Positions 11,825 through 64,000 of a DNA stretch of 64,000 nucleotides are shown here, piece by piece. How positions within the stretch are numbered: the stretch's first letter is position 1; each line of letters begins with the position of its first letter. Source of the stretch: Desulfobacterales bacterium (GTDB taxonomy: Bacteria > Desulfobacterota > Desulfobacteria > Desulfobacterales > JAHEIW01); contig JAQYWI010000004.1 of assembly GCA_030145015.1 (NCBI GenBank), forward strand, positions 1 to 64,000. The letters are read 5' to 3'. The notes below the pieces were generated by a model. The model made no database searches. It was not told the origin of the DNA and saw only the letters and a program-made list of their open reading frames with translations. A program made the position numbers and the translations under genes.

Positions 11825-11851
11825 TTGACAACAAACCGGCTCCCCTATAAG
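11825..11851 (+). promoter_or_regulatory. Candidate sigma-70 promoter upstream of the hydroxyacid dehydrogenase genes
   Basis: TTGACA at 11825-11830 is followed by TATAAG at 11846-11851 (15-base spacer) or TAAGAA at 11848-11853 (17-base spacer). It lies about 165 bases before the ATG at 12017. The gap 11612-12016 also holds the divergent upstream region of the acyl-CoA ligase; no other structure is evident. Confidence 0.4.
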
Positions 11852-12016
11852 AATTGCAGTCATTGATTGATAATAAGATCCAAACGTTCAGCCAGGCGGA
11901 TAAGATCTACAACACATTTGGCGAGGTTATTCAGATCGAAAAATGGTCGCAAAAAAAAACCGACCCATTTTCAGATTGAACGCCTGACAACTTAACGCCA
12001 TATCAAAAGCAAACTC

Positions 12017-14848
12017 ATGTTGCCTCAAAATTACAAACAATTTTACAGAGATCTGCTCGCTTTTATCCCCAGCACAAGGCTCATTACCGACCCGCTGCGT
12101 ACGCTGGTTTACGGTACAGATGCCAGCTTTTATCGCCTGATCCCCAAAATCGTCATCAAAGCGGATTCAGAAGAGGAGGTCTCCCGGATTCTGCAAACCG
12201 CCGATCTTCACAAGATCGCAATTACGTTTCGAGCCGCGGGAACCAGCCTCTCGGGCCAGGCCATCACCGATTCTGTTTTAGTCATCTGCGGCGGCAACTG
12301 GAATAAGTACAAGATACTTGACAACGGCGCCCGAATCCGGCTCCAGCCAGGTATCATCGGCGGCCAGGCCAACCGATACCTGGCGCCCTTCGGGAAGAAA
12401 TTAGGCCCGGATCCCGCATCCATTAACGCTGCCATGATCGGCGGAATTGCGGCCAACAATGCCAGCGGAATGTGTTGCGGCGTTGCCCAAAACAGCTATC
12501 AGACCATCCATAGTATGCGAATTTTGTTTCAGGATGGAGCCCTCCTTGACACGGCCGACAAGAAAAGCTGCGAGCGCTTTAAAAAAACACATCGAGCGCT
12601 GGTGGACAACATTCAGCAGCTGAGTGAAACGGTGCGCGCCAACACTGAGCTGGCAGAGCGCATCCGCCAAAAATTCAGGATTAAAAACACCACCGGATAC
12701 AGCCTGAATGCGTTAGTGGATTTTAAAGATCCGATCGACATTATCCTGCACCTGATAATCGGCTCCGAGGGGAGTTTGGGCTTTGCTTCCGAAATCACGT
12801 ACGACACCGTGGTCGAACACCCCAACAAAGCCAGCGCTCTGATGATCTTTCCGGATATCGCAAGTGCCTGTAATGCCGCAGCCATTCTAAAGAAAGGCCC
12901 GGTGGATGCTGCCGAAATTATGGACCGGGCGTCTTTGCGGTCGGTGCAGGACAAAGAGGGCATGCCGGGCTATCTCAAGGCCTTTTCGCAAAAAACGACC
13001 GCATTGCTGGTTGAAACCCGGGCGCACGCACATGACGAGCTGCAGCGCAATATCGACACGGTTAAGCGGTCGCTTGCGGATGTTCCCATGGAGCTTCCAA
13101 TTGAGTTTACCGATAAGGTTGATGAATACACCAGGCTGTGGAATATCCGCAAGGGACTGTTCCCGGCAATTGGAGCCGTGCGGGAAATCGGGACCACCGT
13201 CATTATCGAAGATGTTGCTTTCCCGATTGCGCGACTTGCCGACGCCACCCTGGAACTGCGAGATCTGATGACCGAATACCGCTACCATGAAGCCATCATT
13301 TTCGGCCACGCCCGGGAGGGGAACCTGCATTTCGTATTCACCCAGGATTTCGCAACTCAAAAAGAGGTGGAACGCTACCGCCGTTTTATGGATGAGGTCT
13401 GCGAGATGGTGGTTACAAAATACGACGGCTCTCTGAAAGCGGAACATGGAACCGGCCGCAATATGGCCCCTTATGTAAAAATGGAATGGGGCGCCGATGC
13501 TTACAGAATGATGCAGCAAATTAAAAACATCTTCGATCCGAAAAATCTCTTGAACCCCGGTGTTGTCATAAATCCCAACCCCAATGTGCATGTCGAAAAC
13601 CTGAAACCACTGCCGCCGACCAATCCAATTGTGGATCGATGCACGGAGTGCGGTTTTTGTGAGCCCTTCTGTCCGTCCAGGGACCTGAGCCTCACACCCC
13701 GGCAACGAATTGTCGCCCAGCGTGAAATGTCCCGCCTGAAAGCAACCCGGGAAAATCCCCAGAGACTGGCTGAATTTGAAAAAAACTATGACTATCTGGG
13801 TGAGCAGACCTGCGCTGTGGACGGAATGTGCGCGGTCGGTTGCCCGATCGATATAGACACGGGCGAACATACCAAAAAAGTTCGCGGCCTCAATGTGCAA
13901 AGACCCATTGTCCAACGGGCGGCCGCTCTCATCGCCAACAATTTCGGGCACGTTGCAAGCGTTGTCCGCCTGGGACTCAACGTCGTTGATCTGACGCATC
14001 ATTTGTTGGGCGCAAACATAATCGAACAGATTTCAGCAGGTGCCAGAAGTTTAAGCAAGGGTCGTCTGCCATGCTGGAATCGGTATATGCCAAAAGGCGC
14101 CGGGCCGATTAAAGCACCAAACCCGCATAGAGAGGACGGATTGCCAAAGGTTGTCTATTTCCCAAGCTGTATCAACCGGACCATGGGTCCGGCCAGGGGG
14201 GATCCGGACGATGAGTCCCTGCCGGCAGTTAGCGTGCGATTGCTCAAAAAAGCCGGTTTCGGGCTGATTTTCCCTGAAAACATGCACCGGCTCTGCTGCG
14301 GCACGGCTTTTGAAAGCAAGGGATTTTTTGAACAGGCCGACATGAAATCAAAAGAGCTCGAGGCCGCTTTGATGCTGGCGTCCAATGCCGGCCAGATACC
14401 GATATTGTGCGACACCAGCCCCTGCCTGTACCGCATGCGTACAAAGATGAACCCCAAATTAAAGCTCTATGAACCATCTGAGTTTATCTATGATTTCATG
14501 ATGGACCGTCTGGCGTTTGAACCTCTGGACGCCAGCGTTGCGATCCACCATTCCTGCAGCAATATGAAAATGGCGCTGGAGCACAAACTGCTGGCGGTTG
14601 CACAGGCCTGTGCCAGAAACGTTGTGGTTCCAGACCGAGTTGGTTGTTGCGGTTTTGCGGGTGATCGGGGATTTACCCACCCTGAATTAAATCAAGCCGC
14701 CCTGAGGGAATTAAAACCGGCGGTTAGCGAAAATTGTACCGCCGGGTATTCCACCAGCCGTACATGTGAAATCGGGTTATCCCGGCACAGCGGCCTGTAT
14801 TATAAGTCGATTGTTTATCTGGTTGATAAAAACACTCAAGTGATCTAA
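12017..14848 (+). CDS. FAD-linked hydroxyacid dehydrogenase fused to Fe-S/CCG modules (Dld-II type)
   Basis: A 943-residue oxidoreductase expected to oxidise a 2-hydroxyacid such as D-lactate and pass electrons through Fe-S clusters to the membrane pool. Order: FAD-binding type 4 (PCMH) domain with FRAAGTSLSGQ at about 71-81 and NNASGMCCG; FAD oxidase C-terminal domain with HAREGNLH and KAEHGTG near 430-480; two cysteine motifs CTECGFCEPFCP (about 542) and CAVDGMCAVGCP (about 598) for [4Fe-4S] clusters; two CCG-type modules with RLCCG (about 758) and GCCGFAGDRG (about 876). The length matches Pseudomonas-type Dld-II rather than the 1018-residue YdiJ. Weak Shine-Dalgarno. First gene of a plus-strand catabolic run. 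Confidence 0.9.
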   Translation: MLPQNYKQFYRDLLAFIPSTRLITDPLRTLVYGTDASFYRLIPKIVIKADSEEEVSRILQTADLHKIAITFRAAGTSLSGQAITDSVLVICGGNWNKYKILDNGARIRLQPGIIGGQANRYLAPFGKKLGPDPASINAAMIGGIAANNASGMCCGVAQNSYQTIHSMRILFQDGALLDTADKKSCERFKKTHRALVDNIQQLSETVRANTELAERIRQKFRIKNTTGYSLNALVDFKDPIDIILHLIIGSEGSLGFASEITYDTVVEHPNKASALMIFPDIASACNAAAILKKGPVDAAEIMDRASLRSVQDKEGMPGYLKAFSQKTTALLVETRAHAHDELQRNIDTVKRSLADVPMELPIEFTDKVDEYTRLWNIRKGLFPAIGAVREIGTTVIIEDVAFPIARLADATLELRDLMTEYRYHEAIIFGHAREGNLHFVFTQDFATQKEVERYRRFMDEVCEMVVTKYDGSLKAEHGTGRNMAPYVKMEWGADAYRMMQQIKNIFDPKNLLNPGVVINPNPNVHVENLKPLPPTNPIVDRCTECGFCEPFCPSRDLSLTPRQRIVAQREMSRLKATRENPQRLAEFEKNYDYLGEQTCAVDGMCAVGCPIDIDTGEHTKKVRGLNVQRPIVQRAAALIANNFGHVASVVRLGLNVVDLTHHLLGANIIEQISAGARSLSKGRLPCWNRYMPKGAGPIKAPNPHREDGLPKVVYFPSCINRTMGPARGDPDDESLPAVSVRLLKKAGFGLIFPENMHRLCCGTAFESKGFFEQADMKSKELEAALMLASNAGQIPILCDTSPCLYRMRTKMNPKLKLYEPSEFIYDFMMDRLAFEPLDASVAIHHSCSNMKMALEHKLLAVAQACARNVVVPDRVGCCGFAGDRGFTHPELNQAALRELKPAVSENCTAGYSTSRTCEIGLSRHSGLYYKSIVYLVDKNTQVI

Positions 14849-14870
14849 TTAATCTTTAGGAGCATGCTTT

Positions 14871-16250
14871 ATGGAAGAATTCACCAAAGATCAAATTGCA
14901 GCTTTGTCCAATTTTGTGACCGCTGACCGCTTCTCCATCGGCCAATCCAGCCGCGAACTGCATCTGCATGACATATCCGCCCACCGCGGAACCCTGCCGG
15001 CAGCTGTTATCTGGCCGATCACCACCGCAGAAGTTTCTAAAATTCTATCCTGGGCATATACTCAGGAGGTACCGGTTACCCCCTGGGGCGCCGGTACCAG
15101 TACCGAGGGCAATCCGGTACCCACCAGAGGCGGGCTCGTAATGGACATGACCCAGATGGATAAGATTCTTGAAATTCGACCCCAGGATCTGCAGGCCGAT
15201 GTCCAGCCCGGTGTTCTGCGCAAAGAGTTGAATCGCCAGGCCGGAAAGCAAGGTTTGTTTTTCCCGCCTGACCCCGGTGCCGATGCGTCCATCGGCGGAA
15301 TGATTGCCAATAACGCATCGGGAGTGCAAACCGTCAAATACGGCGCCACCAAAGATTATGTTATGAGATTAACGCTGGTGCTGCCCGGGGGGAATATCAT
15401 AAACACAGGGTGTAAAGCGCATAAATCTTCTTCCGGTTATGACCTGTCCAGACTGTTTGTCGGATCTGAAGGCACACTGGGAGTGGTTACGGAGGCAACG
15501 CTGCGGCTCGCCGGAATTCCGACCCACCACCTGGCAATTACAATCACATTTAATAAGCTGGATGAAGCCTCTCAGGCCGTGGCGATCATGATCGGCTCCG
15601 GATTGGAACCGGCCGCCCTTGAGTTACTGACGCCTGAGCTCATCAACCTGATGAACCGCGAAAAGGATCTCGGGCTTCCGGAAGTGCCTTCCCTTTTCTG
15701 CGAATTTCACGGTATCAGCAAGGCCAGTCTGCAAGAAACATCCGATCTTGCCAAAGAGTTGTGCCAGGACTGCGGTGCAACCGGTTTCCGATTCGGTGTG
15801 GAGGCCAATGAACGCGCCGAGCTTTGGCGTGCCCGCCATGAAGCCTGGGAAACCATCCATCGCGCCCACCCGGGCAAAGAAACCCTCATCGTGGATGCTG
15901 CGGTTCCGATCTCCCGCTACCCGGAAATGATGGTTTTCTCCCAAAAATTAGTGGATGACAACAATGCATCCGGATATGTCTTCGGGCACGCCGGTGACGG
16001 GAATCTGCATGTTGTTCTGGTAGGAGACCCCGACGATAAGAAGGAGTGGTCGATGCTGGAAAATATCAACGATCAAATTGTCAGCCGCGCGGTGAAACTG
16101 GGCGGCACCTGCACGGGAGAGCACGGCATCGGCATCGGCAAACGCAAATTTATGGAACTGGAGCACGGGCAGAGTTATGATTTGATGCGCCAGATCAAAG
16201 AATTAATTGATCCCAAAGGATTGCTGAATCCGGGGAAGATTTTTTTGTAA
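14871..16250 (+). CDS. FAD-binding oxidoreductase, GlcD type
   Basis: A 459-residue flavoprotein that probably oxidises glycolate, D-lactate or a related 2-hydroxyacid. It has PWGAGTSTEGNPVP in the FAD pyrophosphate loop, ASIGGMIANNASG, GSEGTLGVVTEATLRL, and the C-terminal FGHAGDGNLH and GEHGIGIGKR that build the active site. Unlike its upstream neighbour it lacks Fe-S modules. It follows that gene by 22 bases with an AGGAG Shine-Dalgarno. Two related dehydrogenases in tandem suggest two substrates or stereoisomers, or a shared electron route through the Fe-S protein. Confidence 0.9.
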   Translation: MEEFTKDQIAALSNFVTADRFSIGQSSRELHLHDISAHRGTLPAAVIWPITTAEVSKILSWAYTQEVPVTPWGAGTSTEGNPVPTRGGLVMDMTQMDKILEIRPQDLQADVQPGVLRKELNRQAGKQGLFFPPDPGADASIGGMIANNASGVQTVKYGATKDYVMRLTLVLPGGNIINTGCKAHKSSSGYDLSRLFVGSEGTLGVVTEATLRLAGIPTHHLAITITFNKLDEASQAVAIMIGSGLEPAALELLTPELINLMNREKDLGLPEVPSLFCEFHGISKASLQETSDLAKELCQDCGATGFRFGVEANERAELWRARHEAWETIHRAHPGKETLIVDAAVPISRYPEMMVFSQKLVDDNNASGYVFGHAGDGNLHVVLVGDPDDKKEWSMLENINDQIVSRAVKLGGTCTGEHGIGIGKRKFMELEHGQSYDLMRQIKELIDPKGLLNPGKIFL

Positions 16251-50775: not shown

Positions 50776-52647
50776 ATGATACCCAGGAATATGGAAGCTT
50801 ATCTGATGGCGCATATTCCCGAAGCCGCCATTGAAAATCGCATCCAACGGGAAAAGGGGAGGTGTTTTCTGGAGTTTGGCTATATGGATGAGCATCTCCT
50901 TTCTCGAATCGGAATCAATTGCGATAGAATTGGCCCCAGACTTGTTGCCTGCATGTGGGACGAGGCCTCCGCCCTGGAAGTCGGCGGCTTTCTGGTGGTA
51001 GATAATCTCTCGATGGGGAGCCCATCCATGGGAGGAATCCGCATGCTTCCCGACATCATCCCGGCAGATATTCACAATCTGGCCCGGGGCATGACGTTTA
51101 AAAACGCGGCGGCCGACCTGCCCTGCGGCGGCGGTAAAGCGGGCATTGTGGCCGAGCCTGACATGCCACCGAAGGAACGCACCGAGCGGGTCAGGAGATT
51201 TGCACGCCTGCTTCGACGTTACCGGGACATCTATGTGCCCGGTCCGGATGTCGGCACCAATGACGCCGACATGAAAACGATTGCGATAGAAAATGGTATC
51301 GACAGTGCGGTGTCCAAGCCCGCCGACATGGGCGGCAACCGCATCGATGAATTGGGAGCCGCCGCCGGTGGTTTGATTATCGCGCTTGAGCGATTGCTGG
51401 AAATTATGCCGCGCTTAACGGTATTGCCCCAATTTATGCAATTGAAGGTGCCTTCCCCTGAGGAGCTTACCGTTATTATTCAGGGCTTCGGGGCGGTTGG
51501 CGCGCATGCCGCCCGCCTTCTGATCGAAAAAATTCCAGCGGCAAAAGTCATCGGGGTCAATGATCTCCAGGGTTACATTTACGACAGGGCCGGTTTATCA
51601 ATCGACAAACTTTTGATGATGGGCAAGCAGCAGGGCCTGGTTACCCGTCAATACTACGAAAAGGAAATCGCGTCGCTGGGGTATCGCCACCCCACCAAAT
51701 TTTCAACAGACGCCAACAACCTGCTGCGCGAGTCGGCTTTCTGTTTGATACCGGCGGCCCCCATGCCCAATTACCTGGGCGTACTTCCTGCAGAAAAGTG
51801 TTCCATGAGTGTCGACCGGATGGGAAAATGGTCGCTGATTATTGAGGGCGCCAACACCTACTCGCCGGATCCGAACCGCAAGGCAGCGCGCACCCGCATG
51901 GAGCAGGAAGTCTACCGTCAAAAAGGCGTGATGATCGCCAACGACTATTTGGTCAACTCAGGCGGAGTCATTTTTGCTGCCCAGGAGCACATTATCCCAA
52001 CGCCTGCACACCTTCAGATTCCCGACAAAATACTCGGCAAACCCAGGGCAGTCGATAACTGGCTTTCTAAAAATGCAGCCGAGTTTAGCGAAATTTCTGC
52101 CAGACGTTTGGAAGCAGGCATCGCGTTTAGAGAAAAGTCTATTCGACGTAACATGACAGAGCTGGTCGACTTGCTGGCCTCGGATTCAGAGCTGCTGCCC
52201 AGCCAGGCTGCAGAGCGCATTAGTCTTTACCGTCTGACCGCAAAAGAAAAAGAGCGCACTGCCAAAGACATTATGGAATCGATACCCACCATTAGCATTC
52301 ATGCCGAACTGCAGGAAGCTGCTTTGCTGATCGTCGAATCCCAGAGCAATATCATCGCCGTGCTTTCACAGGATGGCAAGCTTGCAGGCGTCGTCACCAC
52401 CTGGGACATTACCAGAGCGACTGCCAGGGGCATTAGCGAAGACAGCGTAGATAAAATAATGACCCGAAAGGTGATTTCGGCAAATCCAACCGACAGTATT
52501 CTGGATATGGTAACCGATCTGGAGCAAAACCAAATTTCGGCGATGCCGGTTGTTGAAAAAGAAACCGTCCTGGGTGTGGTCAGTTCAGATCTGCTGGCCC
52601 AAGGGTATCTATTGAGACTCCTGCGTTCACAGGTAAAGATCTCGTAA
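50776..52647 (+). CDS. Glu/Leu/Phe/Val dehydrogenase fused to a C-terminal CBS-domain pair
   Basis: A 623-residue amino-acid dehydrogenase. The N-terminal catalytic domain keeps SMGGIRMLPDI, the FKNAAADLPCGGGKAGI substrate Lys region (about 116) and VPGPDVGTNDADM; the Rossmann domain has IQGFGAVGAHAARLL (about 236). From about 497 a linker leads to two CBS motifs (VLSQDGKLAGVVTTWDITRAT and SAMPVVEKETVLGVVSSDLL). CBS pairs bind AMP, ATP or SAM, so adenylate control of deamination is likely. The catalytic part is longer than the usual 410-450 residues. It follows a Usp gene by seven bases. Confidence 0.88.
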   Translation: MIPRNMEAYLMAHIPEAAIENRIQREKGRCFLEFGYMDEHLLSRIGINCDRIGPRLVACMWDEASALEVGGFLVVDNLSMGSPSMGGIRMLPDIIPADIHNLARGMTFKNAAADLPCGGGKAGIVAEPDMPPKERTERVRRFARLLRRYRDIYVPGPDVGTNDADMKTIAIENGIDSAVSKPADMGGNRIDELGAAAGGLIIALERLLEIMPRLTVLPQFMQLKVPSPEELTVIIQGFGAVGAHAARLLIEKIPAAKVIGVNDLQGYIYDRAGLSIDKLLMMGKQQGLVTRQYYEKEIASLGYRHPTKFSTDANNLLRESAFCLIPAAPMPNYLGVLPAEKCSMSVDRMGKWSLIIEGANTYSPDPNRKAARTRMEQEVYRQKGVMIANDYLVNSGGVIFAAQEHIIPTPAHLQIPDKILGKPRAVDNWLSKNAAEFSEISARRLEAGIAFREKSIRRNMTELVDLLASDSELLPSQAAERISLYRLTAKEKERTAKDIMESIPTISIHAELQEAALLIVESQSNIIAVLSQDGKLAGVVTTWDITRATARGISEDSVDKIMTRKVISANPTDSILDMVTDLEQNQISAMPVVEKETVLGVVSSDLLAQGYLLRLLRSQVKIS

Positions 52648-52761: not shown

Positions 52762-53973
52762 ATGATACAACCCCTAATCAAATTCGAGAATGTTTCTAAG
52801 AGTTTCGGCACGAACCAGGTACTCAAGGAAGTCAGCCTCAGTATTTATCAGGGAGAGGTTACCGCCATTATCGGCAAAAGTGGTGTCGGTAAAAGTGTAC
52901 TGCTCAAACATATAATCGGTCTGATGCAGCCCGACGCCGGGGAAATTTTCTTCAATGGACGCCCATTATCGAGAATGAAAAATCCGGAAATTGATAAGCT
53001 AAGGGAGAAATTTAGTTATGTATTTCAAGATACAGCTCTTTTTGACTCTATGACCGTGCGTGAAAACATCGCATTTCCGCTGCGGGGAGGCACATCGCTG
53101 CCGAAATCAGAGGTTAAAAGTCGGGTGGAGGAAAAAATGAAGATGTTTGAATTACAGGGGGTTCATGATAAATATCCCAGTCAGATTTCCGGGGGCATGA
53201 AAAGGCGGCTTGCTCTGGCAAGAGCCCTCGTAACGGAGCCGGAGGTAGTCCTCCTTGACGAACCGACCACAGGTCTCGATCCGATCCGCAAAAACGCAGT
53301 GTACAGCATGATTGTCGACTTACAGAAAAAAATCGGTTTTTCAGCCGTGATGATCAGTCATGAAATTCCGGACATTTTTTATTTTTCCCAGCGCATCGCT
53401 ATGCTGAATGATGGAATAATCTGCTTTGAAGGCACTCCTGAAGAGATTCGGCGGTTTTCTGACCCGGTTGTCCGGCAATTTATAAATGGTCTGGAAAAGC
53501 CCCGCGACATGTTGACAGGAATGGCAACTCGGACACAGGTAGAAAGAAAATTTCAGGAAGAATTAGCGCGCTTACAGCTCCATCGGATTGACTTTTGCGT
53601 GGTTATGCTGACGGTGGAAAACATAGATGAAATCAACGAAAAAATGGGGCATATGACAGGCCTAACGATTATCAAGAACTTTGCCATTCAAATACAGCAG
53701 CGTCTCGATATTACGGATTCCTGCTCGCGCTACAGCCTGGATAAAATTCTCATCGTTCTGCACAATGCCGACATTAATGAAGCGCGGAAGTTTGTTAACC
53801 GCCTGGCCCGGGAATTGATAGTTGAAGATCTGCTGAATAATAAAGCAAGTGCTAAGCTCACTATCCGAATTAGCGCCGGATATGCCCAGGCAGAAGAAGA
53901 CAGCCTGTTAAAGGAGGTTCTCTCAAAAGCGGAATCCAAAGACAGCTTGTATAATGAATTTGAGTTGAAATGA
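52762..53973 (+). CDS. MlaF-type ABC ATPase fused to a degenerate GGDEF-like domain
   Basis: A 403-residue protein. Residues 1-245 form an MlaF/Ttg2A-type ATPase: Walker A GKSGVGKSVLLKHIIGLM, Q-loop VFQDTALFDSMTVREN, signature ISGGMKRRLALARAL, Walker B VVLLDEPTTGLDP, switch MISHEIPD. Residues about 260-400 look like a diguanylate-cyclase fold (FCVVMLTVENIDEINEKMGH, then LTIRISAGYAQ) but the GG[DE]EF loop is replaced by YSLDKIL, so catalysis is unlikely. No MlaE permease or MlaD gene is adjacent. It could regulate lipid transport through binding of a nucleotide or a partner. No strong Shine-Dalgarno is seen. Confidence 0.8.
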   Translation: MIQPLIKFENVSKSFGTNQVLKEVSLSIYQGEVTAIIGKSGVGKSVLLKHIIGLMQPDAGEIFFNGRPLSRMKNPEIDKLREKFSYVFQDTALFDSMTVRENIAFPLRGGTSLPKSEVKSRVEEKMKMFELQGVHDKYPSQISGGMKRRLALARALVTEPEVVLLDEPTTGLDPIRKNAVYSMIVDLQKKIGFSAVMISHEIPDIFYFSQRIAMLNDGIICFEGTPEEIRRFSDPVVRQFINGLEKPRDMLTGMATRTQVERKFQEELARLQLHRIDFCVVMLTVENIDEINEKMGHMTGLTIIKNFAIQIQQRLDITDSCSRYSLDKILIVLHNADINEARKFVNRLARELIVEDLLNNKASAKLTIRISAGYAQAEEDSLLKEVLSKAESKDSLYNEFELK

Positions 53974-54118: not shown

Positions 54119-54529
54119 TTATCCGGCCTTGATGGTAATTTTCCTCGGGGTGGCTTTCTCAACTTTGGGCAGCGTCAATTGCAGCACTCCGTCATTGAGC
54201 TGGGCGTCGATCTTATCCTGATCAATGAGTTCCGACAGGGTGAACTGCCGGTAGTAGTTACCGACCTCGTATTCTATCAGAATGTCTCCTTCATCGGGTC
54301 CTTCGAAAGGCTTGACTTCTCCGGTCAGCGTTAGGACGTCGTCTCTAAGGTCGATGGTCAGATGCTCTGTCTTCACCCCCGGCAGGTCAGCAAGCAGGGT
54401 AATTTCTTTTTCGGTTTCAAAAATATCAACCGCCGGTGTAAAAACCTTGCCCGGCTTGGTTTGTTCCACAGGCGGCGCTGTTTCCATTTTCTCTTTAGCC
54501 TGCAGTTCTTTGGTTGCGGTCTCAGTCAT
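54119..54529 (-). CDS. Hsp20 family small heat shock protein (third in operon)
   Basis: A 136-residue alpha-crystallin-domain chaperone. The N-terminal arm (about 1-35) is short and charged (TATKELQAKEKMETAPP), the core has FETEKEITLLADLPGVKTEHL, and the C-terminal strand LQLTLPKVEKATPRKI has the L-x-L-P form rather than I-x-I at the usual anchor. Preceded by AAAGGAGGA. The arm differs from those of its two neighbours, so the three may form mixed oligomers or serve distinct clients. Confidence 0.92.
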   Translation of the reverse strand: MTETATKELQAKEKMETAPPVEQTKPGKVFTPAVDIFETEKEITLLADLPGVKTEHLTIDLRDDVLTLTGEVKPFEGPDEGDILIEYEVGNYYRQFTLSELIDQDKIDAQLNDGVLQLTLPKVEKATPRKITIKAG

Positions 54530-54568
54530 AATATTTTCCTCCTTTGAAATTGAACCGGATATTCAATT

Positions 54569-55024
54569 TTATTTCACCGTAATTTGTTTGGGCTTTGCCG
54601 CTTCAGCTTTCGGAATGGTTACGGTTAAGACACCATCAACCAGTTCGGCTTCAACTTTGTCTACCTCAATGTCGCCCGGCAAAGCAATGATGCGATTAAA
54701 ACTTCCGGCTCCGCGCTCTTTTCTGTGGAAGTTTACGTCATCGCCCTTAGAGGAGATCTTGCGTTCGCCGGATAGGATCAGGTTTCGGCCGGTTGCTGAG
54801 ATGTTTAATTCTTCGGCTTTCAGCCCGGGCAATTCGGCTCTGACATAATAATTGTCTTTATTTTCGGTTAAATTAATTAATGGAAATACACCGGCGGTCT
54901 CCGGACGATAGGTTCTTCCCAGCACATGCTGAAACACCCGGTCCATGTCACGCTGTGTACGTTCCAGGTCTTCAAACGCACCTCTCCAACCAACGGTTGG
55001 TATATTAAATTTTCTGACAATCAT
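54569..55024 (-). CDS. Hsp20 family small heat shock protein (second in operon)
   Basis: A 151-residue sHsp, the most typical of the three. Arm WRGAFEDLERTQRDMDRVFQ, core NYYVRAELPGLKAEELNISA, the GAGSFNRIIALPGDIEVDKV motif (A-x-x-x-n-G-v-L follows in VDGVLTVTIPKAEA), and a C-terminal VTIPK. Binds unfolding proteins without ATP. AAAGGAGAT upstream of the ATG, 39 bases from the following gene. Confidence 0.93.
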   Translation of the reverse strand: MIVRKFNIPTVGWRGAFEDLERTQRDMDRVFQHVLGRTYRPETAGVFPLINLTENKDNYYVRAELPGLKAEELNISATGRNLILSGERKISSKGDDVNFHRKERGAGSFNRIIALPGDIEVDKVEAELVDGVLTVTIPKAEAAKPKQITVK

Positions 55025-55094
55025 AATTATAATCTCCTTTCTTTGCTTAAATAAAAAAATTGAAACGAATCATATTAATCCAGCAATTTAGCTT

Positions 55095-55559
55095 TTAACT
55101 CCTGCCTCTAACCTGAATTGTTTTGCTCTCCGCCTCTTTGGTTTTCTTCAATACGATTTTTAATACCCCTCTTTTGTAAGAGGCATCAATTTTTTCGGAA
55201 TCGACCTCAGCAGGAAGTTCGATTGTGCGACTGAAATATCCGTAGGCGCTTTCCATCCGATGGTAATTTCCAACCGCCTCCTCTTTTTCCTGCTTTTTCT
55301 CGCCTTTAATGGTCAGCCGCCTTCCATCCAGAGATACACCGATATCCTTGGCTTCGACTCCCGGTATTTCGGCTTTCAGAGTTATTTTCTTCTTGTCTTC
55401 TAAAATATCAGCCGTCGGAAACCAGAGTGCTTTCCCAAGAGGATCACCGGGAACCGCAAAACCCCGCCCAAAGAATCGGTTGCGCAGATCGCCAATTTCG
55501 TGGTGAAGACGGGAAACATCCCCTTTTTGTTGTTTTCTCCAGGGAACTAAATCAAACAT
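55095..55559 (-). CDS. Hsp20 family small heat shock protein (first in operon)
   Basis: A 154-residue sHsp. It begins MFDLVPWRKQQKGDVSRLHH, then DILEDKKKITLKAEIPGVEAKDIGV in the crystallin core (given in part), and KRGVLKIVLKKTKEAESKTI at the end. The start follows AAAGGAGGAA. The gene lies 55 bases after a 39-codon ORF, and a near-consensus sigma-54 promoter precedes both. Confidence 0.93.
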   Translation of the reverse strand: MFDLVPWRKQQKGDVSRLHHEIGDLRNRFFGRGFAVPGDPLGKALWFPTADILEDKKKITLKAEIPGVEAKDIGVSLDGRRLTIKGEKKQEKEEAVGNYHRMESAYGYFSRTIELPAEVDSEKIDASYKRGVLKIVLKKTKEAESKTIQVRGRS

Positions 55560-56090: not shown

Positions 56091-58220
56091 CTATATGTTT
56101 TTTAATGCCTTTTTATAAAACTTTTCAACATATTCCTTAATCATTCGTCGGGCCGAAAACCTGGCGGCAGTGCTCTTTATCGATTCTCTCATTACCTTTA
56201 CCCATCCGTATGGTACGCCTTCTTCTGAAACATCGTAATACAGGGGAATAATTTCTTCTTCGAGAAGTCGGTAAATCTCAGCAGCATCGGTTTGATCCCG
56301 ATCACCATTCATTTCTTCATGGCTTACGGCCCAGCCGTTTTTGCCGTTGTAGCCTTCCATCCACCAGCCATCCAAGACACTAAGCTGCGGTACTCCGTTC
56401 AGCCCTGCCTTCATGCCGCTGGTCCCGCTGGCTTCCATCGGCGGGAGGGGGTTGTTCAACCATACGTCCACCCCGTGTACCATGTACTGCGCCAACTGCT
56501 CACCATAATCTTCGACAAAGGCAATGCGTCCGCCCATGTCGGGGTCACGGCTGACATTAAAAATTCGTTGGAGTATGCGCTTGCCCGAGTCGTCGGCCGG
56601 ATGTGCTTTGCCGGCGAAAATGACCTGCATGGGCCGCCAGCGATCATTGAGAAGTTTTTTTAAACGTTCAAGATCGTAAAAAATCAAATCCGCTCTTTTA
56701 TAAGTCGCAAATCGCCGCGCAAAACCGAGGGTGAGGACCGAGGGATCCAGCAACGATCCTCCGGACAGAATGATCGATGGATTCGCCCTTTCTTTCGCCC
56801 AGCGCAGACGGGACCGTTCGCGAATGGCATCAATCAATTTGATCTTCAACCAATAATGGGTTTTCCAGAGTTCCTCATCCGGAAGCTTTTCAATCAATTC
56901 CCAGATGAGCGGATTGTCGTGATCTTCCTTCCATTCGGATCCCAGATGTTTATCCAAAAGAAGCTTCATCTTGGGCTCAATCCAGGTCGGGACATGGATA
57001 CCATTGGTTACATGGTCAATGGTGCTTTCGCCTTCGGGCAAATCCGGCCAGAGACTTTGCCAAAGCTGGCGGGATACTTCTCCATGCTTTTTGCTGACAC
57101 CATTGCGGTATTTGGAGAGCCTCAGCGCCATAGCCGTCATATTAAACCCGGCTTCCGGTTTTTCCGGATGAACGCCAAGTTTTAGAAATGCGTCGTGATC
57201 CAACCCCAGTGCCGGCCAGTATGCGTGAAAATATTTTTCAATTAGATGAAACGGAAAGACATCATGGCCGGCAGTCACCGGGGTGTGAGTCGTAAAAATA
57301 GAAGTATTCCGCACCCACTCCGAGGCCTCCTGATAATTATTGCCCTGATTGATTCGGTCCCGAATTTGCTCCAACAGGGCAAATGCAGCATGACCTTCAT
57401 TCAGGTGTAAGATAAGACGTTTAATTCCCAGGGTCTCCAGCACTTCGGCCCCGCCGATTCCCAGAACAATCTCCTGGCGCAGCCTCTGCTCCAAATCGCC
57501 GGTGTAAAGCCGCGCCGATATCCCTCGATTCCAGGGATCGTTTATCTCGATATCCGTATCTATGAGATAAAGTGGCACTCGACCGACATCCACTCGCCAT
57601 ACCGCTACATGAATCTGCGGTTCGATCAGAGGGACCTTGACCACAAGCTGGTTACCGTCTGCAGTCAACACCCGGGCAATCGGTGCAGCATCTCGATCCA
57701 GCTTTTCTGTAAAATTTTCCTGCCAGCCGTCATCACGGATTTGCTGATAAAGATAACCTTCCGGATACATAAATCCTACCGCAACAACCGGAACATTCAA
57801 ATCACTGCATTCCTTCAGGTGATCCCCGGCCAGAAAGCCCAATCCGCCGGCATAAAACGGCAGTGATCGATGCAGCCCATATTCAGCTGAAAAATAGGCA
57901 ATAGCAGAAACCCCTGGATCCGGTAGATCAGGTAAAAACGGGCACCCCTTTGTTTCCATATATTTGGCAAACCGTGATACCACGACGTCATATTGTCGCA
58001 AGTAGTCCGCGTTGCCGGCTGCAGCTTCCAGAATCTTTTTCGGAAGCTCTTTGAGCATTTTGTCCGGATTATGCACGCTTTCTTTCCAGGCCTGACGGTC
58101 TAAAGTTTTATACAGCATTCGCGCAGCCGGATTCCAGCTCCACCATAAGTTTTCTGCCAACTCGCCCAGCCCGCTTATCCGCTGCGGGAGATTGGGAAAA
58201 ATATTTTCCTGTTCAATCAT
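56091..58220 (-). CDS. glgP: Alpha-glucan (glycogen) phosphorylase
   Basis: Releases glucose 1-phosphate from glycogen or maltodextrin with phosphate. The 709-residue protein is of the TIGR02094 class, with the N-terminal DUF3417-type start (ISGLGELAENLWWSWNPAARML) in place of the extension of classical phosphorylases. It shows AYFSAEYGLHRSLPFYAGGLG, HLNEGHAAFALLEQ, TTHTPVTAGHDVF, HVTNGIHVPTW and the pyridoxal-phosphate Lys in MEASGTSGMKAGLNG. AAGGTAATC precedes the ATG. Its start is two bases after the stop of the secreted-protein gene, so it belongs to the minus-strand run from 63 kb; no other glycogen gene is near. Confidence 0.92.
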   Translation of the reverse strand: MIEQENIFPNLPQRISGLGELAENLWWSWNPAARMLYKTLDRQAWKESVHNPDKMLKELPKKILEAAAGNADYLRQYDVVVSRFAKYMETKGCPFLPDLPDPGVSAIAYFSAEYGLHRSLPFYAGGLGFLAGDHLKECSDLNVPVVAVGFMYPEGYLYQQIRDDGWQENFTEKLDRDAAPIARVLTADGNQLVVKVPLIEPQIHVAVWRVDVGRVPLYLIDTDIEINDPWNRGISARLYTGDLEQRLRQEIVLGIGGAEVLETLGIKRLILHLNEGHAAFALLEQIRDRINQGNNYQEASEWVRNTSIFTTHTPVTAGHDVFPFHLIEKYFHAYWPALGLDHDAFLKLGVHPEKPEAGFNMTAMALRLSKYRNGVSKKHGEVSRQLWQSLWPDLPEGESTIDHVTNGIHVPTWIEPKMKLLLDKHLGSEWKEDHDNPLIWELIEKLPDEELWKTHYWLKIKLIDAIRERSRLRWAKERANPSIILSGGSLLDPSVLTLGFARRFATYKRADLIFYDLERLKKLLNDRWRPMQVIFAGKAHPADDSGKRILQRIFNVSRDPDMGGRIAFVEDYGEQLAQYMVHGVDVWLNNPLPPMEASGTSGMKAGLNGVPQLSVLDGWWMEGYNGKNGWAVSHEEMNGDRDQTDAAEIYRLLEEEIIPLYYDVSEEGVPYGWVKVMRESIKSTAARFSARRMIKEYVEKFYKKALKNI

Positions 58221-58222
58221 GA

Positions 58223-58798
58223 TTACCTTTTTATCAAATTCGGATTTTCTGAAGCGTAAGCCTCGATAAATACATCCACCTGACTTTTAATATCATCCTT
58301 AATAAGCGCCAGACGTCTCAACCCCACGGATTCAGCCTGCCAGGTAATTGAAAATGCCTTTACGGACGAATCACGCTGCAAGGCGACCATTTGGCGAAGG
58401 TTAAGACGGAGTGCATAAATGTATTTTTTTTTGGTGTCCGCTGTCTCAATTTTTTCTTCCTTATCATCGAGAGATAAAAATGTTTTTTTGGCGGGTTCAT
58501 GAGCAACAAATTTGAGTCTCACGCTCAGAATACCTTCAAATGCCGATTGATTGGAGGCCTCCTCGGCTAAGACTTGAATGCCGGCCTTCTGCAGTTGCTG
58601 CTCGATGGATGATTGCAAAACGCTTTCAGACAGCCCCACCTTTTCAAGTTCAGCGCGCCATTCCGACTCTACAGGGTGAACTTTTACAATTATCGATTGA
58701 ATACCGCGAAGCGTGGCGCGGTCCCTTGCTCTATCATCGGCCTGACAAAATGAACTCAAAGATAAGAGAATAAAGAAAAAAACAATTTTTTCTTTCAT
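58223..58798 (-). CDS. Hypothetical secreted protein
   Basis: A 191-residue periplasmic-type protein with a signal peptide (MKEKIVFFFILLSLSSF, cleavage after CQA near 21; the Cys is not followed by lipobox spacing I would trust). The body (GIQSIIVKVHPVESEWRAEL, LQSSIEQQLQKAGIQVL, LSVRLKFVAHE) has the alternating pattern of lipoprotein-like or secreted domains of uncertain family. It lies between the LapA-like gene and glgP with 25- and 2-base gaps. Function unknown. Confidence 0.7.
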   Translation of the reverse strand: MKEKIVFFFILLSLSSFCQADDRARDRATLRGIQSIIVKVHPVESEWRAELEKVGLSESVLQSSIEQQLQKAGIQVLAEEASNQSAFEGILSVRLKFVAHEPAKKTFLSLDDKEEKIETADTKKKYIYALRLNLRQMVALQRDSSVKAFSITWQAESVGLRRLALIKDDIKSQVDVFIEAYASENPNLIKR

Positions 58799-58823
58799 TT
58801 TTCATTCCTCTTCCAAATAAATA

Positions 58824-59045
58824 TTATTTTCTACCTTTGCTTTCATCTCGATACTTTTTTTTGCCTTTCGGCAAGGTCAATAGCCAACCGGCAATAAATC
58901 CGATCGCCAGCGTACCGAACAGCATTAATGCGCGTGACATGGATATCGTCCATACCAGAAATCGGAACTCGACCACCTGGGTATTTTGAACGACAAAGAT
59001 AAGAACAAAAGCGATCAGACATAAAAAGATAACGATTCTGATCAT
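58824..59045 (-). CDS. LapA-domain (DUF1049) small membrane protein
   Basis: A 73-residue protein with two transmembrane helices (IVIFLCLIAFVLIFVVQNTQ and ALMLFGTLAIGFIAGWLLTL) and a basic tail KGKKKYRDESKGRK, the layout of lipopolysaccharide assembly protein A (LapA/YciS) domain proteins, which bind FtsH partners in E. coli. AAAGGAGG lies before the ATG. It is 27 bases downstream of the ATP-grasp ligase gene. Confidence 0.85.
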   Translation of the reverse strand: MIRIVIFLCLIAFVLIFVVQNTQVVEFRFLVWTISMSRALMLFGTLAIGFIAGWLLTLPKGKKKYRDESKGRK

Positions 59046-59072
59046 GATAAGCCTCCTTTCCGGACGGATGAA

Positions 59073-60020
59073 TTATCTGCTATGCTCGAAGTTATGTTTC
59101 GAAAATTCAACACGGTCATCAAGATTTACCAACTCGGTGTGATGCTGCTCAACCAGTTTTAAACGCGGTAGCAAGCCTGCCCGGTTGGCAATCTGGATAT
59201 TGAGGCCCGGGCGTGCGTTTACCTCCAGGATCAACGGTCCTTTATCTTTGTCCAATACGAGATCGACACCGATATATCCAAGGCCGATTAGCTCAAAGTG
59301 GAGGGCGGCGATGTTGAGCAACGCGTCCCAGTTCGGGATGGTAACACCGGTGACCTGATTGCCGGTATCCGGATGTTCGGAAATGATATTATTTTTCCAT
59401 ACCGCTGTCAGGGTTTTGCCGGAGGTGATGTCGATTCCTGCGCCGATGGCCCCCTGATGCAGATTGGCTTTACCGCCGGACATGCGAGTGGGCAGGCGCA
59501 CCATTGACATGACGGGCACACCGAGAAAAACAATCATACGTATATCAGGCACTCCTTGATAACTGATGGCTTCGAACACCGGGTCAAATTGCACCCGATA
59601 TTCGATCAATGCCTTATCCGGCTGACCCCCCAGGCTGTAAAGGCCACTGATGACATTAAAAAGATGATATTCTACCTCGTCACGGTTCATCAGAACTCCG
59701 TCGGCTTTGCGAAACATCTCCTTTGAACGCCCACTGATGACCAAAATGCCCCTTCCACCGGATCCTCTGGAGGGTTTTATGACAAAGTCCGGGTAGGATT
59801 GAACCAGGTGTGCGAGATTGCGGACTTCGTATTCCGTCTCAATGACGCCATAAAGCTCAGGTACGGCGATACCGGCTTTCAAGGCAAGTTTTTTGGTTCG
59901 CAGTTTGTCATCCACCAGGGGATAGCGATGCCGCGAATTGTATTTCATGGTGTATTCGGCGTTTCGCCGGTTGATCCCCAGCACACCGGTTTCAGCAAGC
60001 TGTTTTTTTAGCTTAATCAT
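59073..60020 (-). CDS. Alpha-L-glutamate ligase-like ATP-grasp protein (RimK-related, TIGR02291)
   Basis: A 315-residue ATP-grasp enzyme that should join an amino acid such as glutamate to an acyl acceptor by an acyl-phosphate. The conserved N terminus GVLGINRRNAEY marks the TIGR02291 group; then DKLRTKKLALKAGIAVPELY, the ATP loop FVIKPSRGSGGRGILVI (about 80-98), and the Mg/ATP site LGYIGVDLVLDKD and LEVNARPGLNIQIAN. The start lies inside the 3' end of the 7TM gene (eight-base overlap). It works with the two upstream genes in a conserved set. Confidence 0.88.
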   Translation of the reverse strand: MIKLKKQLAETGVLGINRRNAEYTMKYNSRHRYPLVDDKLRTKKLALKAGIAVPELYGVIETEYEVRNLAHLVQSYPDFVIKPSRGSGGRGILVISGRSKEMFRKADGVLMNRDEVEYHLFNVISGLYSLGGQPDKALIEYRVQFDPVFEAISYQGVPDIRMIVFLGVPVMSMVRLPTRMSGGKANLHQGAIGAGIDITSGKTLTAVWKNNIISEHPDTGNQVTGVTIPNWDALLNIAALHFELIGLGYIGVDLVLDKDKGPLILEVNARPGLNIQIANRAGLLPRLKLVEQHHTELVNLDDRVEFSKHNFEHSR

Positions 60021-61548
60021 CTGATCCTAATTTTGCCAGCGCTTTGAACCGCGGCAATTCCAGCAATCTGAATCCTGAATAGCGCCCCAGCAGTAACATC
60101 CCGGCCAGCAAGATGAGCAGCAACTCCGGAAACACAAATACCAGATGTTCAATATAGCTTATCGTCATCACGATATAGGCCAGCACGGCCGCGACCAGGG
60201 ACCATGCGCCCTGCTGCAGGGTTTCCAGGGCCCCCAGCTCTTCCCACACAATAGACATTCTTTCAATGGTCATGGTCAAAATCACCATGGGAAAAAGGGC
60301 TACCGATAGTCCCCGTTCCAGACCCAGTTTATGGGTCAGAATGCTAAAACCGGCCATCAAAAATATAACAATAATCAGAATAGCCGAAAGACGCGGCACG
60401 ACCAGCAACTGCAGATGCGCGAGATATAACCGGATACTCAATCCCAGTGCAATTAAGGTCGTAAACAGAAAGAGACCCCAGACCAGTTGGGTTTCTCGAA
60501 ATGCCAGCCCAATCAGCACCGGCATGAACGTTCCAAAGGTTCGGATGCCGATTACGTTTCGCAGAATCACCAGTAAAAAAACACCGACCGGCAGCAACAG
60601 GATGACATGATAGACCGACTGGGTTTCAATCGGAAGGCTGAACAACGAAAAATTCAGCAAAAACGGTTTCTTCATCTCTTCTATATCAAGCGCAGCCTGT
60701 ATAACCGGCTCCTCGCTTCGAGACACCGATACTGTTGCGGCAAGGTTTTTCGTTCCCTGAGACTGAACCAGCGGCTCCATTCCCCGCCACCAGGCCAGGT
60801 AATCCTCGGGAACGCCGCGCTTTCCGGTAACCGCATCATAGGATACCCACTGCTTTTGATCGTAAATTTCCAGCCAGCGGATAATTGTCGAACTGCGCCT
60901 TTGATCTTCCAGCCGAATACCATGCACGCTGCGGGCATGAATACCGGCCAACGCCAGTAATTGAGCGGATAGATCCACTTTCTTCTGGACCGAGGCTTTT
61001 TTCCCCAGCAGCAGCGCGACATTATCACCCGGCCGGGGGTTATTAAGGCGTTGCAATAACTCGATGACGATGCCGTTTATATCAGCGGATTTTTCACGTA
61101 CCTCCGAGACAATGGCCTCGGAGGCCTCGCGATAAGCGCCTTTAAGGTCGGGTTTTTTAGGTCTGGATCCTTCAGGTTTCTTGGGGGGGATGTCTCGACC
61201 CATCCGGCGCACTGAAGCCCGGTAATAAAGATTTTGAGTTCCCTTAGCCTTGCGAATCGACCAATGAACCTTGCGTTTCCCGTCCTCGGCTACGACGTTG
61301 ACGCCATAGCCACGGGAAATAAAATTCTCATTCACGATCGCAAATCGGTGGGAATTGCGAGGAAGATTCATTGAAACCTTGATAGGTTTATCGTCGGAGA
61401 CAAAGGTCAGGTGGGCCTCAACATCCCAGATATCGGATCGAACTTCAGGCACCAGCGGAAAATCCAATACCAGCGCCTTGTACAAAAATACAATTGACCC
61501 GATAAACATTAATGTAACCGTCAGAATGATTAGATGACGCCTGTTCAT
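60013..61548 (-). CDS. Inactive transglutaminase fused to seven transmembrane helices
   Basis: A 511-residue inner-membrane protein. One anchor helix (about 5-27) is followed by a periplasmic domain (about 30-290) with a transglutaminase-like fold, in which LLALAGIHARSVHGIRLED stands where the catalytic Cys should be, so it is predicted inactive. A linker (EEMKKPFLLNFSLFSLPIETQ) leads to seven transmembrane helices (about 305-490). These correspond to the 7TM_transglut Pfam families. The ATG overlaps the protease stop by four bases. It may sense or present a peptide for the partner ligase and protease. Confidence 0.85.
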   Translation of the reverse strand: MNRRHLIILTVTLMFIGSIVFLYKALVLDFPLVPEVRSDIWDVEAHLTFVSDDKPIKVSMNLPRNSHRFAIVNENFISRGYGVNVVAEDGKRKVHWSIRKAKGTQNLYYRASVRRMGRDIPPKKPEGSRPKKPDLKGAYREASEAIVSEVREKSADINGIVIELLQRLNNPRPGDNVALLLGKKASVQKKVDLSAQLLALAGIHARSVHGIRLEDQRRSSTIIRWLEIYDQKQWVSYDAVTGKRGVPEDYLAWWRGMEPLVQSQGTKNLAATVSVSRSEEPVIQAALDIEEMKKPFLLNFSLFSLPIETQSVYHVILLLPVGVFLLVILRNVIGIRTFGTFMPVLIGLAFRETQLVWGLFLFTTLIALGLSIRLYLAHLQLLVVPRLSAILIIVIFLMAGFSILTHKLGLERGLSVALFPMVILTMTIERMSIVWEELGALETLQQGAWSLVAAVLAYIVMTISYIEHLVFVFPELLLILLAGMLLLGRYSGFRLLELPRFKALAKLGSDD

Positions 61549-62075
61549 TTAGGTATTACTCCCTGGCAGTCCGGTTTAACCTTAAACGTTGCAGAGGCGT
61601 CTACCAGAGTTGAATTTCGGAGGTAACTGCGTCCGATAAGCATCTGGTAATTAAATTTCCCCCGATCCTCCAGATTGACTTCAACTTCCTTGTACACTTT
61701 GCCCAGGCAGATTCCAAGGCGAATGACTGGACGCGTGATCGATGAAGTCCCAATCTGTTTGATTATGGCCATGCGAATCACTCTGGCCTCCATACTTAGC
61801 GTTCGTCCTTTCCAGTTTTTCAACTTGAAGCGCACCCATTTTGCCCCGTCACGCTCAAATTCCTCAATATGGTTTGCATTTAAAGATGAATTCCTGGCAC
61901 CGGTGTCCAGCTTGGCCTTGATTTCCAAATTGCCCGGGAAAATGCTGACTCTTTCCACCCAGCCGGCAACCTGTTTTTCCCCGGAAATAGCATTGGGGAC
62001 ATAGATCTGCAAAACGGCAATGATTAGAATAAGGCCATAAAGGGTTTTGGCGTAATTATTTAATTTTTTTTTCAT
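61545..62075 (-). CDS. Retropepsin-like aspartic protease (RimB/Zn_protease family, PF05618)
   Basis: A 176-residue secreted or membrane-anchored protein. An N-terminal hydrophobic segment (about 11-30, LYGLILIIAVLQIYVPNAIS) is followed by the family domain with the active-site motif KAKLDTGARNSSLNA (Asp near 58) and YQMLIGRSYLRNSTLVDASA at the end. The older name ATP-dependent zinc protease is misleading, because the D-T-G-A motif is that of aspartic retropepsins. Start at ATG 62075 (a TTG lies one codon before). Coupled to the 7TM gene by four bases. Confidence 0.85.
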   Translation of the reverse strand: MKKKLNNYAKTLYGLILIIAVLQIYVPNAISGEKQVAGWVERVSIFPGNLEIKAKLDTGARNSSLNANHIEEFERDGAKWVRFKLKNWKGRTLSMEARVIRMAIIKQIGTSSITRPVIRLGICLGKVYKEVEVNLEDRGKFNYQMLIGRSYLRNSTLVDASATFKVKPDCQGVIPK

Positions 62076-62133
62076 CAACTACGGGAATTTGCATTTTTAA
62101 TTTATTTATAATTTTTGTAGCATATTAATCATT

Positions 62134-63024
62134 TTACCAGTGAGGCTGATTGCCGATGCGCCTACCCATAACTTCAAGGGTTTCTGTGACGACGACGAAA
62201 GCATTGGGATCGACTTTGCGAATCAGTTCTTTGAAACGCGAAAGTTCCGTAAATGTAACAACCGAGTACAGAATATGCAGTTGCTGCCCGGAATATCCGC
62301 CCTCTCCTTTAACGATGGTCACACCCCGTTGCAGTTTGTCCATGATTTGATGGGAAATCTCTTTCCATTGAGGAGAGATGATCATTATGGCCTTGCGCTG
62401 GTTGAGCCCGATCACCACCAGATTAACAAAATGAGAATTGATGTAAAGATAAATCAATGTATACAAAACGATTTCCATCGGCAGGCGAAATAGGGCAATA
62501 AACAGCAATATAGCATGAAACGTCATTACCGTGTTTCCCGGACGTATCGAGAAGCGTTTAAATAGAATCACTGAGAGAACATCCAAACCACCTGCAGACC
62601 CCAGGGATCTTAAAATAATACCCGAACCTATCCCGGAGATGATTCCGGCTGCCAGGGCATTGAGAATCATGTCCTCAACAGGGAAAACCGGATACGGCCA
62701 GAATATGACGGCTGAAAAAATGACCATCCCCGCCAGGCTGTACCAGAAGAAACGTCTACCCACGAACATCCAGCCGATGACAAACAGGGGTATGTTCAGC
62801 AGGAAATAGATAAATCCGATCGGCAGGGACGGAAAGACATAATGACCGAGGAGGGCCAGTCCGGTTACACCGCCGGCCAGAAATTGTTTGGGAACCAGAA
62901 TCCCTTTAACGGCTGCTGCGCAAAGAACGCTGCCTGCGAAAATCAGTAATAGGTTCCATAATACGATACATATGGATTTTAACTCTTTCCTTGTAAAATA
63001 TTTGAGTAACATTTCGAATTTCAC
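62134..63024 (-). CDS. YitT family membrane protein (DUF161/DUF2179)
   Basis: A 296-residue protein with five or six transmembrane helices (about 15-200, [24 protein letters not shown]) and a C-terminal DUF2179 soluble domain (about 215-290, [24 protein letters not shown] and [17 protein letters not shown]), which is thought to bind a small ligand. Function unknown in general. The ATG overlaps the stop of the upstream epimerase-like gene (ATGA) and the protease gene follows after 58 bases. Confidence 0.88.
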
Positions 63025-64000
63025 TTTAATTCAAATCCCAGACCGGGTTTTGGCGTTGGATAAAGAATTCCCTTTTTTAAAACGACAGCCCCCTGGGCAG
63101 GATCGTCCAATAGATCCAGATGGCCGTCCAAATCCGCATAAATCACATTGGGCCGTGCCAGCGCAAAGTGCAGACCGGCCGCGATGCCCAAGGCCGATTC
63201 GTCCATACATCCTACCATGGCCTCGAGGCTTGCAGCGCGGGCGACGGCATTTATCCTCGCGGCCTCGGCGATACCGCCGACTTTCATCAATTTTATGTTG
63301 ATCATGTCCACCAGTCCTTTGCGGGCCAGTCGAAAAACATCTCGCAGGTTCATGATACTCTCATCGGCCATCACCGGTATCGGTACGCCATCGGTGATTT
63401 TGCCCAGAAGGTCAAAATCCGCCCTGTTTGTCGGCTGTTCGATCAATTCGAGTTTGGCCGAACGGGTTGCGTTAACAAAGCGCAGCGCCTCTGCCTCTGT
63501 ATATCCCTGGTTGGCATCAAAGCGCAGCTCGATCTTTTTGCCCACTTTTTCCCGCACCTTTAAAACCTTCTCAATGTCCGCCTCTACATTTCGCCCACCT
63601 TTTATTTTCAAGGATCTGAATCCTTTTTTAATCCATTCTTCGGCTCTGGCAACCGTTTCAGCCAGGGGGTAAATGCTGATGGTCACACAGGTCCTTATGC
63701 GCGTGCGATAGCCTCCCAGCAGTTTGTAGAGGGGCAGCCCGCAGACTTTACCCAGGATATCATGCAGCGCCATATCCACCATGGCCACCGCGGATGGATG
63801 ATCAGGTAAAATCGGTACCAGTTTTTCGGTGATTAGGGCAAGCCGCAACGGATCCGAGTGCTTCACGACCGGATCAATTGCATCGCTGCAGATTTTTATA
63901 ACCGTCTCGGGGGTTTCACCGGTAACCTGTTTATCCGGTGCGGCACAACCATATCCGACAGTGCCGGTATTGGTTTCGAGGCGCAAAAAAATGTTGGTCG
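63021..64000 (-). CDS. Mandelate racemase/muconate lactonizing-type enzyme, dipeptide epimerase-like (cut by window edge)
   Basis: The C-terminal 326 residues of an enolase-superfamily enzyme; the 5' end lies beyond the window, and the frame is open to base 64000 ([17 protein letters not shown]). Active-site motifs: the KxK pair in [11 protein letters not shown], metal Asp in [15 protein letters not shown], Glu in LELIEQPT, Asp in VMADESI, and the second acid/base Lys in [12 protein letters not shown]. This matches the L-Ala-D/L-Glu (dipeptide) epimerase group. The link to a glutamate-ligase-like gene downstream suggests a common glutamyl-peptide theme. Confidence 0.85.

Follow-up and report, generated by a model that had tools for sequence, protein, structure and literature searches.

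A predicted rlo-type operon in Desulfobacterales and the fixed rloB-rloC gene pair across genomes

The rlo-type trio and its proteins

We analysed a 64,000-nucleotide (nt) stretch of contig JAQYWI010000004.1 from a Desulfobacterales bacterium (hereafter the window), in which open reading frame (ORF) analysis placed a run of eight genes, all on the minus strand, at 56091-63998 (Table 1). Three consecutive genes of this run encode a retropepsin-like aspartic peptidase, a membrane protein that joins an inactive transglutaminase domain to seven transmembrane (7TM) helices, and an ATP-grasp enzyme. Their one-strand A-B-C order and domain make-up are common to the rlo operon described in 2025 in Pseudomonas aeruginosa (PMC12239564, cited here and below for its available text), and, judged from sequence, the trio represents this operon in Desulfobacterota. 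We refer to the three products as RloA, RloB and RloC.

Window RloA matched the solved retropepsins PDB 9g58 (E 5.5e-23) and 9g59 (E 2.9e-20). We numbered its residues after 9g58, which reproduces the residues named in PMC12239564. In this alignment, window RloA retains K46, D48, R92, K97, R114 and R137; the catalytic motif D-T/S-G-A of retropepsins is present, as are the pseudosymmetric polyglutamate contacts K46, R92, R114 and R137. RloA from Pseudomonas cleaves polyglutamate and requires at least eight glutamates, and its R114A and R137A variants showed the strongest loss of cleavage, with no rescue (PMC12239564). Across a set of 62 RloA proteins including that of the window, taken from ORF calls with a length filter of 120-260 amino acids, D48, R114 and R137 were invariant (62/62), position 46 was occupied by K in 49 proteins and by R in the other 13 (K/R in 62/62), and R92 was found in 51 of the 62. 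Read by eye, the translated N-terminus of window RloA has a basic start followed by a hydrophobic stretch, and the protein is probably periplasmic.

The transglutaminase domain of window RloB resembles 6g49 in a weak alignment (E 0.006). Its catalytic Cys is absent; the preliminary description of the window had called the domain inactive. No Cys occurs in residues 180-200 of window RloB, and a Cys anywhere in this interval was seen in 1 of 66 aligned RloB sequences. The protein is a transglutaminase fold without its catalytic Cys fused to a 7TM region. In two genome draws, PF14402 was detected in 20 of 247 genomes from the phylum of genome G002 and in 22 of 194 from the order of genome G001, so that only a minority of these genomes would carry the operon.

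Window RloC passes the model TIGR02291 with 479 bits (cut-off 314.2) and differs in this from RimK, since its score with NF007764, the RimK equivalog model for the S6 ligase, is 26.3 bits, below the cut-off of 331. RloC is a putative glutamate ligase. The juxtaposition of a retropepsin with an ATP-grasp enzyme of the glutamate-ligase kind recalls RimB-RimK, the system of ribosomal S6 polyglutamylation. The two differ in that RimB is a cytosolic protein and that no RloB belongs to the rim operon as published, as far as the available text of PMC12239564 describes it.

All eight genes, together with overlaps of 4 nt between the retropepsin and 7TM genes and of 8 nt between the 7TM and ATP-grasp genes, lie where the preliminary description had put them; a further overlap of 4 nt, between the epimerase and YitT genes, adds to those it had listed. 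The remaining spacers are 55 nt between the YitT and retropepsin genes and 27, 25 and 2 nt downstream of the ATP-grasp gene. The retropepsin may start at its ATG, the codon right after the TTG. Between 55400 and 64000, promoter-like sites (13, against 12.8 in shuffled sequences) and terminator-like sites (9, against 10.2) were at chance level, and no Rfam family of RNA elements reached its gathering score in the window.

Table 1. Genes of the minus-strand run, from the highest to the lowest coordinate
Product	Coordinates	Strand	Domain matches and remarks
Dipeptide-epimerase-like enolase-superfamily enzyme	63021-63998	-	PF13378/PF02746; 5' end cut by window edge
YitT-family membrane protein	62134-63024	-	PF02588 and PF10035
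rloA-type retropepsin-like aspartic peptidase	61545-62078	-	PF05618, E 2.3e-33; start TTG 62078 or ATG 62075
rloB-type membrane protein, inactive transglutaminase domain and 7 transmembrane helices	60013-61548	-	PF14400, PF14402, weak PF01841
rloC-type ATP-grasp, alpha-L-glutamate-ligase-like	59073-60020	-	PF14397, E 7.3e-94; TIGR02291
LapA-domain small membrane protein	58824-59045	-	PF06305, E 3.5e-12
Orphan 191-amino-acid protein, apparently exported (signal peptide by eye)	58223-58798	-	No Pfam or NCBIfam family
Alpha-glucan phosphorylase	56091-58220	-	PF11897/PF00343; TIGR02094, 829.6 bits (cut-off 191.7)

Gene neighbourhoods of rloB

We compared 116 rloB loci, excluding the window, which comprised the best 80 of 415 confirmed matches in a named genome collection and 36 loci from further genomes; L072 and L163 probably represent a single gene split between two contigs. 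A locus counted as eligible when it had enough flanking sequence, and a neighbour had to share the strand and fall within a set distance. The window proteins served as tblastn queries for the detection of neighbours (E 1e-4), a search that very divergent YitT or LapA sequences could escape. Downstream of rloB, rloC was found in 108 of 110 eligible loci, and the junction between the two was 20 nt or less (overlapping or near) in 66 of the 73 cases measured. An rloA gene lay upstream in 82 of 113. These results indicate that rloB and rloC are a fixed pair, to which the protease gene is less firmly tied.

The remaining five genes of the run had been proposed in the preliminary description as parts of the same system, with conservation of all eight genes as the check. 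Outside close relatives this conservation is not supported by the 116 other loci, as each of the five genes was found near rloB in no more than 3 of 83-97 eligible loci: YitT upstream on the same strand in 3/94, the epimerase upstream in 3/84, LapA downstream in 3/97 (L001, L002 and L004), the gene of the 191-amino-acid protein (ORF191) in 1/93, and the phosphorylase downstream in 2/83, one of these being just 35% identical. In six additional same-class loci, rloABC was present throughout (6/6); the epimerase was found in none of them (0/6) and YitT in two (2/6), on the opposite strand only.

A larger cluster was observed among the four loci closest to the window (L001-L004), whose RloB proteins are 67-75% identical to that of the window. 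YitT is present in three of these four, the epimerase in two, and LapA in all three that have enough downstream sequence, at 76-92% identity. The gene order is epimerase-YitT-rloABC in L002, and epimerase, SpoIIE-domain gene, YitT and rloABC in L001; L004 keeps YitT and not the epimerase, and L003 is without both. In L140 we found the order epimerase, Usp gene, rloB. Among the matches listed, the relatives of RloB with a named organism were Desulfobacterales or Deltaproteobacteria, and the same holds for those with a named organism among the 120 listed of the 349 homologues of the 191-amino-acid protein. At least eight of these listed homologues pair with a listed RloB by equal size of the largest contig, which suggests that the two genes are on shared contigs in close relatives. 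Few close relatives are contained in the named collection, and the sample is too thin to measure linkage well within the close group.

The epimerase has L-Ala-D/L-Glu epimerase (PDB 1jpm) as its nearest solved structure, aligned over near full length (E 1.2e-65) and including the KxK and DxD motifs. With the dipeptide epimerase model NF041118 the protein, 5'-truncated by the window, scored 225.8, below the cut-off of 500. The 191-amino-acid protein had neither a Pfam nor an NCBIfam match at E <=0.001, and it matched no PDB entry at E <=10. When 16 members of its family were scanned at E <=1 for a possible origin, ten families were listed with 1-2 members each and a best E of 0.012; one member matched the poly-gamma-glutamate hydrolase family PF05908 at E 0.19, which we took as chance. 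The extended cluster is therefore real in one group, which argues against the added genes being mere passengers there, yet it is not the defining feature of the system, and YitT and the epimerase are probably neighbours outside the core. An eight-gene system beyond close relatives was not supported by the neighbourhood counts, with few close relatives sampled.

The only eligible loci without a downstream rloC were L143 and L164, whose RloB proteins are divergent and 63% identical to each other. In both, a retropepsin gene adjoins rloB in divergent orientation, and its best NCBIfam model is RimB, with 131 and 126 bits, respectively, under the cut-off of 200. In L143 the product of the RimB-like gene shows, by eye, no evident signal peptide. 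After this gene come rimK (460 bits; cut-off 331) and then an AstE-like gene, with a separate RloA-like gene beyond; at 9142-15839 the three genes stand between the divergent rloB and the rloA-like gene, both of which are on the opposite strand. The contig of L164 stops before any RimK position. RimK makes poly-alpha-glutamate (PMC12239564), and the arrangement in L143, one complete locus, suggests that the partner of RloB is a polyglutamate-making ligase and that RloB may pair with a second ATP-grasp enzyme of this kind. As a separate observation, L040 carries a glutathione-synthetase-like ATP-grasp gene (1535-2587) as the second gene upstream of rloB, and its gene family, named from one member, is found at the same position in 4 loci.

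The rlo operon of Pseudomonas is already known, and PMC12239564 refers to its own taxonomic survey and to conservation among RloA proteins in its supplements. In paper searches of an open-licence library we found no quantified rloB-rloC pairing, no account of conserved polyglutamate residues in Desulfobacterota and no RloB apparently linked to RimBK.

A proposed glutamate-chain pathway and its alternatives

We consider it somewhat probable that the trio makes a glutamate chain (RloC), handles it at the membrane (RloB) and trims it (RloA). Cytosolic RloC would spend ATP on the synthesis of an alpha-linked chain of glutamates, either free or on an acceptor, and RloB, its regular membrane partner, would pass or present the chain to the periplasm, its inactive transglutaminase domain acting by binding and not by catalysis. 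Periplasmic RloA would cut chains from a length of about eight glutamates upwards and in this way keep the polyanion from building up. Without RloA, the chain would accumulate, with harmful effects at low osmolarity; loss of RloB or RloC would mean that it is never made or never delivered, and the mutant would be rescued.

The evidence for this pathway comes from both systems. In Pseudomonas, cleavage of polyglutamate by RloA is published, as is the rescue of the triple RloA1-3 mutant in hypoosmotic medium by deletion of rloB or rloC (PMC12239564). The window and the compared loci contribute the gene order, the tight rloB-rloC link, the substrate residues of RloA and the lost transglutaminase Cys. 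That RloC ligates, that RloB transfers the chain and what kind of polymer is made are our inferences. The proposal of the preliminary description that the trio is one functional unit around glutamate chains thus gains support from the cleavage and epistasis in Pseudomonas and from the main residues retained here, whereas the five neighbours were not supported as system parts, and no evidence was found for the sensing role that it had given to the 7TM protein. It had placed the trio among putative amidoligase systems, for which Iyer et al. 2009 on amidoligases is reportedly the comparative-genomics source.

Several observations weigh against the proposed pathway. The best NCBIfam model of window RloA is RloA3, at 123.5 bits under its cut-off of 210, and window RloB stays under the cut-off of 900 of the NCBIfam RloB model (E 8.4e-147, 489.9 bits); for this reason we call the trio an rlo-type operon and do not assign it to the exact NCBI families. 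Of the substrate-contact set, window RloA is missing K95 and K109, both asymmetric contacts, together with the flap residue R99; positions 95 and 99 are each I and position 109 falls in a gap, in a flap alignment that is uncertain. No rloA was found within 700 nt upstream of rloB in 31 of 113 eligible loci. The best Pfam model of RloC, PF14397, is named sugar-transfer associated ATP-grasp, which makes a non-glutamate substrate possible, and in its available text PMC12239564 reports neither a ligase activity of RloC nor a polyglutamate product. The RimK association comes from one complete locus, and the RloB proteins of L143 and L164 are related. Set against the Pseudomonas operon as a whole, the window trio is alike in the catalytic and main polyglutamate-binding residues of RloA, the inactive transglutaminase with 7TM and the ATP-grasp RloC, and it is unlike in its scores under the Rlo cut-offs, the RloA flap, the upstream epimerase/YitT pair and its Desulfobacterales relatives.

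The alternative that survives best, although we regard it as rather unlikely, is that a specific envelope protein receives a polyglutamate tail post-translationally from RloC and RloB and loses it again through RloA, without any free polymer. It would parallel the action of RimK and RimB on ribosomal protein S6 in the cytosol, and protein modification is one of two possibilities that the authors of PMC12239564 name, leaving both open in the text available. The absence of any acidic run above three residues from the eight window proteins is counted on its side, although no acceptor is known. With RloC predicted to be cytosolic and RloA exported, the target would also have to be exported after modification or be presented by RloB. 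As for a substrate with an acidic tail inside the cluster itself, this candidate was ruled out, the longest acidic run in the eight proteins being 3.

It is improbable, in our view, that all eight genes form a system in which the dipeptide epimerase, YitT and the genes downstream work with the trio to provide or process a glutamyl peptide, such as one from peptidoglycan. The shared strand and short gaps, the clusters of L001 and L002 and the LapA genes of close relatives, the contigs apparently shared by ORF191 and rloB, and the epimerase alignment with 1jpm all favour such a system, yet they are met by the low counts among eligible loci, by the absences in L003 and L004 and by the six same-class loci without the epimerase. 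Just as doubtful is a signalling role, in which RloB would be a receptor for a periplasmic glutamyl ligand and would regulate RloC instead of taking part in polymer making: a 7TM region with a degenerate periplasmic enzyme domain may suggest ligand binding, but no known signalling domain is among the Pfam and NCBIfam matches of window RloB or RloC, and the rescue of the RloA mutant by either loss (PMC12239564) is as expected for joint synthesis and transfer, regulation being possible as well.

The comparison shows the rlo module of Pseudomonas to be a wider system, and it poses a testable question, namely whether an ATP-grasp enzyme and a 7TM protein make an exported glutamate chain. The eight-gene hypothesis, which had been over-extended, is trimmed accordingly.

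Possible relation of RloB to PgsC/CapC, and further window genes

RloB bears a suggestive but statistically weak resemblance to PgsC/CapC of poly-gamma-glutamate synthesis. The partner of CapC is a Mur-ligase-like enzyme, not an ATP-grasp protein. We tentatively raise the idea, on balance an unlikely one, that the 7TM region of RloB is a remote relative of PgsC/CapC, in which case RloB-RloC would be a Gram-negative poly-alpha-glutamate synthase/exporter with an ATP-grasp enzyme replacing the Mur-like ligase and RloA acting as the periplasmic chain cutter.

The likeness centres on a GxxxxGxxxP motif after the first helix, which, counted post hoc, was present in 103 of 104 RloB sequences, 31 of 32 CapC domains and 4 of 71 other membrane ORFs. 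An hhalign comparison of RloB with CapC aligned this motif with a probability of 3.7% and E 0.012. In global profile alignment, RloB against pooled CapC scored 21.7, while decoys from only five membrane families (62 windows, forward and reversed) reached at most 9.9; by the same method, known pairs of CapC subgroups scored 27-59 and RloB against each CapC subgroup alone 2-5. The forward alignment beat the reversed one in 40 of 40 subsamples globally and in 27 of 40 locally. Ranking by hidden Markov models (HMMs) placed 17, 9, 7 and 11 RloB sequences among the top 20 for four CapC models, in two incompatible registers, and these counts are inflated because 104 related RloB sequences stood against 71 other membrane ORFs.

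Other searches gave little or nothing. The CapC family PF14102 had no match to window RloB at E <=10 with HMMER filters on, a single CapC sequence as query retrieved nothing, and no CapC relative was found in the PDB at E <=1. An RloB alignment searched against 14 CapC genomes, without a positive control, gave no match, and PF14402 against 15 CapC genomes matched in one, at a genuine RloB-type gene and at a weak stray place, neither being at the CapC gene. When CapC models were run on 25 rloB genomes, RloB accounted for 1 of 20 and 2 of 6 weak matches in two scans, all in G098, where the only CapC-model matches fall on RloB. Ungapped profile scans preferred other registers and were equalled in 12 to 86 of 300 shuffles, the number varying with window and shuffle.

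Two tandem CapC domains were observed in proteins of about 1000-1200 amino acids, in L144 (5195-8437) and in L230, L231, L234 and L235. Their genes adjoin large membrane sensor-like and response-regulator-like genes, as labelled by eye. These proteins were rejected as a bridge, as the ORFs around 6 of them and L144 held no RloC-, RimK-, RloA- or RloB-like match at E <=10.

Elsewhere in the window, a glutamate-dehydrogenase-family protein with C-terminal CBS domains (PF02812, PF00208, PF00571) is encoded at 50776-52647, and three consecutive small heat-shock (HSP20) genes lie on the minus strand at 54119-55559. Between them, at 52762-53973, we found an unusual-looking ABC ATPase with a C-terminal GGDEF domain (PF00005 then PF00990), the signature of which appears degenerate by eye; this fusion could tie transport to a nucleotide signal.

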